Below are positions 23,456 to 51,549 of a DNA stretch of 64,000 nt, piece after piece (within the stretch, counting starts at the first letter, position 1; every line of letters begins with the position of its first letter). The stretch spans positions 1-64,000 of the forward strand of contig JAGWHU010000002.1 in assembly GCA_028866575.1 (NCBI GenBank), given 5' to 3'. The stretch comes from Candidatus Micrarchaeota archaeon. Its GTDB lineage: Archaea > Micrarchaeota > Micrarchaeia > Micrarchaeales > Micrarchaeaceae. The notes under the pieces were generated by a model that saw nothing but the letters and a program-made list of their open reading frames with translations, was not told the origin of the DNA and did no database searches. A program made the translations under genes and the position numbers.

Positions 23456-23556
23456 TGCAGGGAGGGAGATTTGTTCAATGAAATTTTTGAACTCCCGCAG
23501 ACCTAAGTCAACGGATCTTGAGTCCGCCGCGTTTGACCGTGCTCCGCCATCCCTGC
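23456..23556 (-). tRNA. tRNA-Leu (anticodon CAA) with a 16-nt intron in the T-loop
   Basis: A type II (long variable arm) tRNA. The acceptor is GCAGGGA/TCCCTGC. The anticodon stem GCGGA/TCCGT has loop CTCAAGA, giving CAA. The variable arm has stem GAC/GTC. The T-stem GGGAG/CTCCC is perfect, but the T-loop is 23 nt instead of 7. Removing 16 nt restores TTCAAAT and an 85-nt tRNA. Within the insert TTGAAC can pair with the GTTCAA made by the last T-stem base and the loop start, the kind of helix expected in a bulge-helix-bulge splice motif. Discriminator A; CCA not encoded. Confidence 0.88.
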
Positions 23557-51422: not shown

Positions 51423-51436
51423 GTCAAGCTAAAGCC
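51423..51436. repeat. Casposon target-site duplication, right copy
   Basis: GTCAAGCTAAAGCC, identical to 38324-38337. Its last four bases are the 3' end of the tRNA-Thr gene (51433-51436), so insertion left the tRNA complete. Confidence 0.93.
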
Positions 51437-51549
51437 CCAGGAGGGAATTGAACCCTCGGCCTTCTGCTTTATGGCTTGCTTGCTTTTGATAAAACTTTTC
51501 CTAAAAGTTTTGATACCATGCAGACGCTCTGCCACTGAGCTACTGAGGC
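51433..51549 (-). tRNA. tRNA-Thr (anticodon GGT) with a 45-nt intron
   Basis: The acceptor is GCCTCAG/CTGGGGC with discriminator T. The D-arm is GCTC-AGTGGCA-GAGC, the anticodon stem TCTGC/GCAGA and the T-arm GAGGG-TTCAATT-CCCTC. The segment between the anticodon stems is 52 nt; removing 45 nt after position 37 gives loop ATGGTAA and anticodon GGT. ATGG pairs with CCAT and leaves 3-nt bulges, a bulge-helix-bulge splice site. The intron holds a perfect hairpin, AAAACTTTT/AAAAGTTTT. The mature tRNA is 72 nt. The 3' end is the casposon target and CCA is not encoded. Confidence 0.92.

Follow-up and report, generated by a model that had tools for sequence, protein, structure and literature searches.

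A tRNA-Leu(CAA) gene with an insertion in its T-loop lies on the minus strand at positions 23456–23556 of the window, the whole 64-kb stretch of DNA that was analysed, with its 5' end at 23556 and its discriminator A at 23456. The parts of the gene, and of the splice signal predicted within it, are as follows.

23456..23556, minus strand: tRNA-Leu(CAA) gene with T-loop intron, from the sequence and an ARAGORN call on the spliced form
23487..23556, minus strand: 5' exon, 70 nt, ending in ...GGGAGTTCAA (tRNA position 58), placed by the cut register giving TTCAAAT in 89/89 genes
23518..23520, minus strand: anticodon CAA, from the sequence and the ARAGORN call on the spliced form
23489..23492, minus strand: 5' strand of the BHB central helix, G53 U54 U55 C56; 4 bp possible in 89/89 genes
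23471..23486, minus strand: intron, 16 nt, AAATTTCATTGAACAA, from the ARAGORN call on the spliced form; missing from 5/94 genes
23473..23476, minus strand: 3' strand of the central helix, intron GAAC, followed by the bulge AA|A (the stroke marks the cut); only G-U-compatible changes among relatives
23456..23470, minus strand: 3' exon, 15 nt, AT + CTCCC + TCCCTGC + A, from the sequence and the ARAGORN call on the spliced form

The gene reads through an acceptor stem (GCAGGGA/TCCCTGC), a D-stem (GCG/CGC), an anticodon stem (GCGGA/TCCGT) enclosing CTCAAGA, a variable arm (GAC/GTC) and a T-stem (GGGAG/CTCCC). The first-pass annotation had called all of these stems perfect, which stands if G-U pairs are counted but not strictly, as a G-U pair closes the anticodon stem. 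It had also described a 23-nt T-loop from which deletion of 16 nt restores TTCAAAT, and this is seen directly in the sequence, where the unspliced loop is TTCAAAAATTTCATTGAACAAAT and removal of positions 23486–23471 leaves the 7-nt loop. ARAGORN did not call the unspliced gene and called the form spliced in silico as tRNA-Leu(caa); the T-arm was normal in the predicted fold of the spliced RNA.

In the 64-kb window ARAGORN reported one tRNA, which is another gene, and an Rfam search at its cut-off returned two, neither of them tRNA-Leu(CAA). The gene scored 18.2 bits with the Rfam tRNA model against a cut-off of 29 bits, and four intron-free orthologues scored 54–57 bits. The T-loop intron explains why the tRNA finders used here miss this gene and why other tRNAs with T-loop introns score poorly, and tRNA counts from such tools may therefore be too low here.

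Conservation of the insertion among relatives

A DNA search for tRNA-Leu(CAA) covered 99 genomes, including the genome to which the window belongs (hereafter the host genome, G000), and gave matches in 94, all of which were read. The T-loop insertion was present in 89 of these genes, with lengths of 10–21 nt and 83 distinct introns, and five genomes (G004, G007, G025, G060 and G098; loci L114, L131, L140, L141 and L143) had a plain 7-nt loop from which the intron was exactly missing. A cut after tRNA position 58 restored TTCAAAT in 89/89 genes, compared with 83 after position 57 and 70 after position 59. The exon letters TTCAA and AT were unchanged in 89/89 genes, of which TTC[A/G]A and AT were required by the parser itself, and the intron interior was free in length and letters, showing no sequence conservation.

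The tRNA body showed two-sided compensatory changes in the acceptor, D, anticodon and variable stems across 26 sequences; these changes, together with an insertion at the same site in 89 of the 94 genomes with a match, argue that the gene is not a product of chance. The locus might alternatively be a decaying pseudogene with UUG read by tRNA-Leu(UAA), as a tRNA-Leu(TAA) gene that could wobble exists (L043). Such decay is extremely improbable given stems that are intact and compensated over 26 orthologues and a match kept in 94/99 genomes. Another intact tRNA-Leu(CAA) was what the first-pass annotation had named as evidence against its own reading, and none was found in the host genome (97.5% complete); a DNA search there gave two matches, the window gene and the CAG isoacceptor (L029), and the other leucine isoacceptors present are CAG, TAG, GAG and TAA.

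It is also conceivable that the insertion is never removed and that the mature tRNA functions with an enlarged, hairpin-bearing T-arm, and the extra hairpin of the unspliced form is indeed stable (-39.6 kcal/mol for the whole, z -4.0). A retained insertion would destroy the elbow formed by the T-loop and D-loop. Permanent retention in the RNA is very improbable, as it leaves unexplained both the loop edges fixed around an insert of such varying length and the five orthologues with an exact 7-nt loop. Pseudogene, unspliced loop and chance were thus all rejected on the intact compensated stems, the fixed loop edges and the conservation in 89/94 genes. The locus is confirmed as a genuine tRNA-Leu(CAA) gene with a T-loop insertion, and the original reading of a 16-nt T-loop intron agrees with both the conserved insertion site and the ARAGORN call on the spliced form.

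A covariance-model search for intron-length Leu(CAA) genes (E <= 1.2e-20) across 301 genomes of the class gave matches in 133/164 genomes of families f1 and f2 (72/85 and 61/79; counted by eye) and in 0/137 genomes of the other 26 families among the matches listed (to about E 2e-17). The four strongest matches outside the order (G188–G191) were read directly and proved to be intron-free Leu(CAA) genes. Within the order 31 members were without an intron-length match, five of these being confirmed intron-free. A separate pattern scan of contigs, whose first spacer was one base too long and which therefore recovered genes only where the variable arm is longer, gave seven matches that do not represent a prevalence; one of them lay in Brachyspira (L157). 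Genera g4, g7 and g28 each include species with and without the intron, which indicates clean loss (or regain) on several occasions. Most likely the ancestor of the order already carried the intron, which has since been lost cleanly several times and looks old and vertically inherited.

Predicted splice signal and splicing enzymes

In the window gene, GUUC at the T-loop edge can pair with GAAC of the intron as a 4-bp central helix, and slipping the T-stem by one base (GGGA/UCUC) places one 3-nt bulge, AAA, on each strand on either side of that helix. By inspection this gives the BHB order GGGA/UCUC, bulge AAA, GUUC/GAAC and bulge AAA, with bulges on opposite strands, followed by an inner helix of three pairs (AAU/AUU) closing a UUC loop. 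Cuts after the second base of both bulges would remove exactly 16 nt, and removal between the bulges yields a normal tRNA in silico, by the loop in 89/89 genes and by the ARAGORN call. In the minimum-energy fold the 5-bp T-stem stayed unslipped, UUCAA was paired and a 5-nt bulge was left; the BHB must therefore compete with this alternative shape.

The 4-bp central helix was possible in 89/89 introns in comparison to 383/17800 shuffled introns, and the outer 4 bp could form in shifted register in 88/89 genes. Intron positions -6 to -3 had counts of G89, A82/G7, A83/G6 and C79/T10, with which pairing to GUUC is always possible, and the bulge letter adjoining the cut (-1) was A in 83, C in 5 and T in 1. 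As the 5' strand of the central helix is the invariant T-loop, two-sided covariation is not demonstrable for this helix. The inner helix had 0 bp in 20 genes, 1 bp in 43, 2 bp in 21 and at least 3 bp in 5; with so short a helix most of the 89 precursors would be relaxed, BHL-like substrates with the 5' site in or near the loop. Both BHB and BHL pre-tRNAs are described as cleaved in vitro by the ARMAN-2 enzyme (PMC12397907).

The host genome encodes a 390-aa endonuclease (L046:1204-2376, minus strand) of which residues 1–390 align to residues 1–387 of the ARMAN-2 (Ca. Micrarchaeum acidiphilum) enzyme 4fz2 at E 3e-165 (next best match 2.4e-25), as well as an RtcB ligase (E 3.6e-166). The endonuclease is thus a three-unit single chain aligned over its whole length to 4fz2, which is the epsilon2 type that the first-pass annotation had proposed to look for. 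All eight residues checked against this known enzyme (PDB 4fz2, 9w2k) are kept, namely Y160, K161, K228, Y236, H251, R275, K282 and W384, which comprise the catalytic triad Y236/H251/K282, the ARMAN-specific-loop residues Y160/K161 and three further RNA contacts; the roles of the triad and of Y160/K161 are given for the ARMAN-2 enzyme in PMC12397907. The two proteins differ in that identity is 239/387 (62%) and that they belong to different genera by our grouping (g1 and g17).

An endonuclease fragment of G017 is 100% identical to 4fz2 over 185 residues, and G017 is therefore ARMAN-2 itself or very closely related to it; a 13-nt intron of the same kind is present in its Leu(CAA) gene (L051). 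This shared intron and the endonuclease match bear out the earlier assignment of the window to an ARMAN-type organism. The suggestion that an epsilon2 enzyme fits the intron is borne out by the presence of the gene but is limited by the distribution of the enzyme, which gave matches in 280/301 genomes of the class and is therefore older or wider than the Leu(CAA) intron. A joint origin of enzyme and intron, which was considered, is unsupported given this class-wide occurrence.

From the arrangement of these parts we infer how cleavage and ligation would proceed. In pre-tRNA-Leu(CAA) the T-loop would be opened by the 16-nt intron, whose GAAC would pair with G53-U54-U55-C56 while the T-stem shifts one base along (GGGA/UCUC). 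The two resulting AAA bulges, on opposite strands round a 4-bp helix, would form a standard substrate of archaeal splicing endonucleases, cleavage by the epsilon2 endonuclease would follow the second A in both bulges (after A58 and before A59), and ligation of the exons by RtcB would give a normal tRNA with the loop UUCAAAU. Overall, the insertion is very probably a spliced intron, cut from the pre-tRNA by the epsilon2 endonuclease with the exons joined by RtcB, that was present in the ancestor of the order and was cleanly lost several times.

T-loop introns of other tRNAs and retention of the Leu(CAA) intron

The first-pass annotation had called introns outside the anticodon loop rare beyond some Crenarchaeota and ARMAN; in this order T-loop introns are common. 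T-loop introns occur in 8/45 complete tRNA genes of the host genome, namely Leu CAA and seven further genes: Lys CTT (L037), Arg TCG (L038), Lys TTT (L039), His (L040), Arg CCT (L041), Ala GGC (L042) and Ser GGA (L045). About 13 genes have an anticodon-loop intron and two a D-loop intron; these counts and that of the T-loop introns were made by eye, as were the anticodon assignments of intron-bearing tRNAs. Ser(GGA) seemingly has a 12-nt anticodon-loop intron as well. The D-loop introns are those of tRNA-Gln(CTG) and tRNA-Leu(TAA), the latter also being found in G025 and G007 (L036, L043, L244, L246).

Other peculiarities were observed among the tRNA genes of the order. Many Lys and His genes, with or without introns, have a T-loop starting with TCC instead of TTC (L187, L190, L193, L212–L214 and others; L037 and L040 in the host genome). 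Position 55, which is C in these loops, is normally pseudouridine, and C55 may reflect editing or loss of the modification. In two genomes a complete tRNA-Leu gene is accompanied by another copy whose 5' end is altered; the copies lie 4.6 kb apart with 119 nt exactly shared in G004 (L142/L144) and 1.9 kb apart with 72 nt shared in G083 (L152/L153), a pattern as left by an integrated element targeting a tRNA gene. A tRNA-Asp-like sequence of the host genome (L044, C5:61591-61651), without a matching 5' acceptor strand and about 0.8 kb from an intact tRNA-Asp, is either a truncated copy or a tRNA half.

The frequency of T-loop introns was compared between tRNAs in 31 genomes, the host and 30 relatives. 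Introns were found in 27/30 Leu(CAA), 21/29 Ala(GGC), 14/29 Arg(TCG), 5/30 Lys and 5/27 His loci; the Lys loci cover both anticodons, two loci came from some genomes, loci L283 and L313 were left out as other isoacceptors, and Lys locus L192 was unparsed and intron-free by eye. Fisher tests of Leu(CAA) gave p values of 0.10 against Ala, 6e-4 against Arg(TCG), 1e-8 against Lys and 4e-8 against His, which are merely indicative and serve for ranking only because the genomes are related. Median intron length was 13 nt in Leu in comparison to 29 in Ala and 32.5 in Arg. Retention of the Leu(CAA) intron is the top of a range and does not stand alone; the idea that it is uniquely retained is weakened by the Ala(GGC) control. 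Its loss as part of a general loss of introns was rejected on the evidence of G025 and G007: Leu(CAA) is intron-free in both, yet G025 has T-loop introns in no fewer than five further tRNA genes and G007 has one in Ala(GGC).

Several T-loop and anticodon-loop introns of the host genome are alike in sequence (several pairs, 0/300 shuffles), and no such similarity was found between the Leu(CAA) intron and other introns of that genome. The anticodon-loop intron of tRNA-Thr(GGT) in the window (51433-51549, minus strand) contains AAACTTTT...ATCAAAAG, which is common to the anticodon-loop introns of Thr(GGT), Ala(TGC) and Gly(TCC) and the T-loop introns of Lys and Ser (0/300 shuffles; related loci L023, L028, L039 and L045). 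From this likeness, these introns form a family that has apparently spread between sites. Introns of different tRNAs that share sequence resemble the tRNA introns that transpose in Thermoproteales (Fujishima 2010, as summarised in PMC4090602), from which the Leu(CAA) intron differs in having no such similarity and in looking old and vertically inherited.

Why the intron was kept is a separate matter from what it is, and two readings were weighed, the first of which is compatible with the intron being spliced. A real, spliced intron may have been kept by chance and without a role, as one of many T-loop introns in the order; this is the somewhat probable explanation, as T-loop introns are common elsewhere in the order (Ala and Arg(TCG)), the difference between Leu and Ala is not significant, the intron interior is not conserved and losses have occurred. 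It accounts less well for the excess of Leu(CAA) over Arg(TCG), Lys and His, for a length near the minimum, and for G025, which is without only the Leu(CAA) T-loop intron and kept several others.

Alternatively, and rather doubtfully, the Leu(CAA) intron may have been ancestrally fixed and selected. On this reading the T-loop sequence GUUCRANUC would amount to half a splicing signal, so that every insert with (U)GAA(C)AA at its end would become spliceable there, and the universally conserved T-loop could have served introns of this order as a general landing site. The Leu(CAA) intron would then have been fixed in the ancestor of the order and trimmed near to minimum size, where it might, for example, delay folding or modification of the T-arm, or release of the tRNA, until splicing has occurred.

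Archaeal BHB introns that lie at non-canonical positions and are cleaved by EndA are described from Thermoproteales, ARMAN-2 and Caldiarchaeum, and T-arm or T-loop sites are already among them (PMC6379350, PMC3293823, PMC12397907); PMC4033280 also covers BHB introns of the T-loop and non-canonically placed ARMAN introns. The Leu(CAA) intron resembles these in its 4-bp helix, two 3-nt bulges and predicted bulge cuts with ligation to a normal tRNA, and differs in being very short (10–21 nt) at one site of one isoacceptor and in occurring throughout most of two families. In the literature examined we found no mention of it or of its near order-wide retention, which is no proof of absence. Fujishima et al. 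(2011) reportedly found the tRNAs of ARMAN-2 to be heavily interrupted by introns at diverse sites, and the ARMAN-2 Leu(CAA) copy may therefore already be listed there. The Leu(CAA) intron is thus an inherited intron of an already known kind, with notable retention.

In summary, a non-canonical tRNA intron, reduced to about 13 nt, appears here as an inherited feature of an archaeal order and not as a sporadic insertion. At least three genera (g4, g7 and g28) contain naturally intron-free genes alongside intron-bearing species and thereby provide ready-made pairs for the study of intron function.
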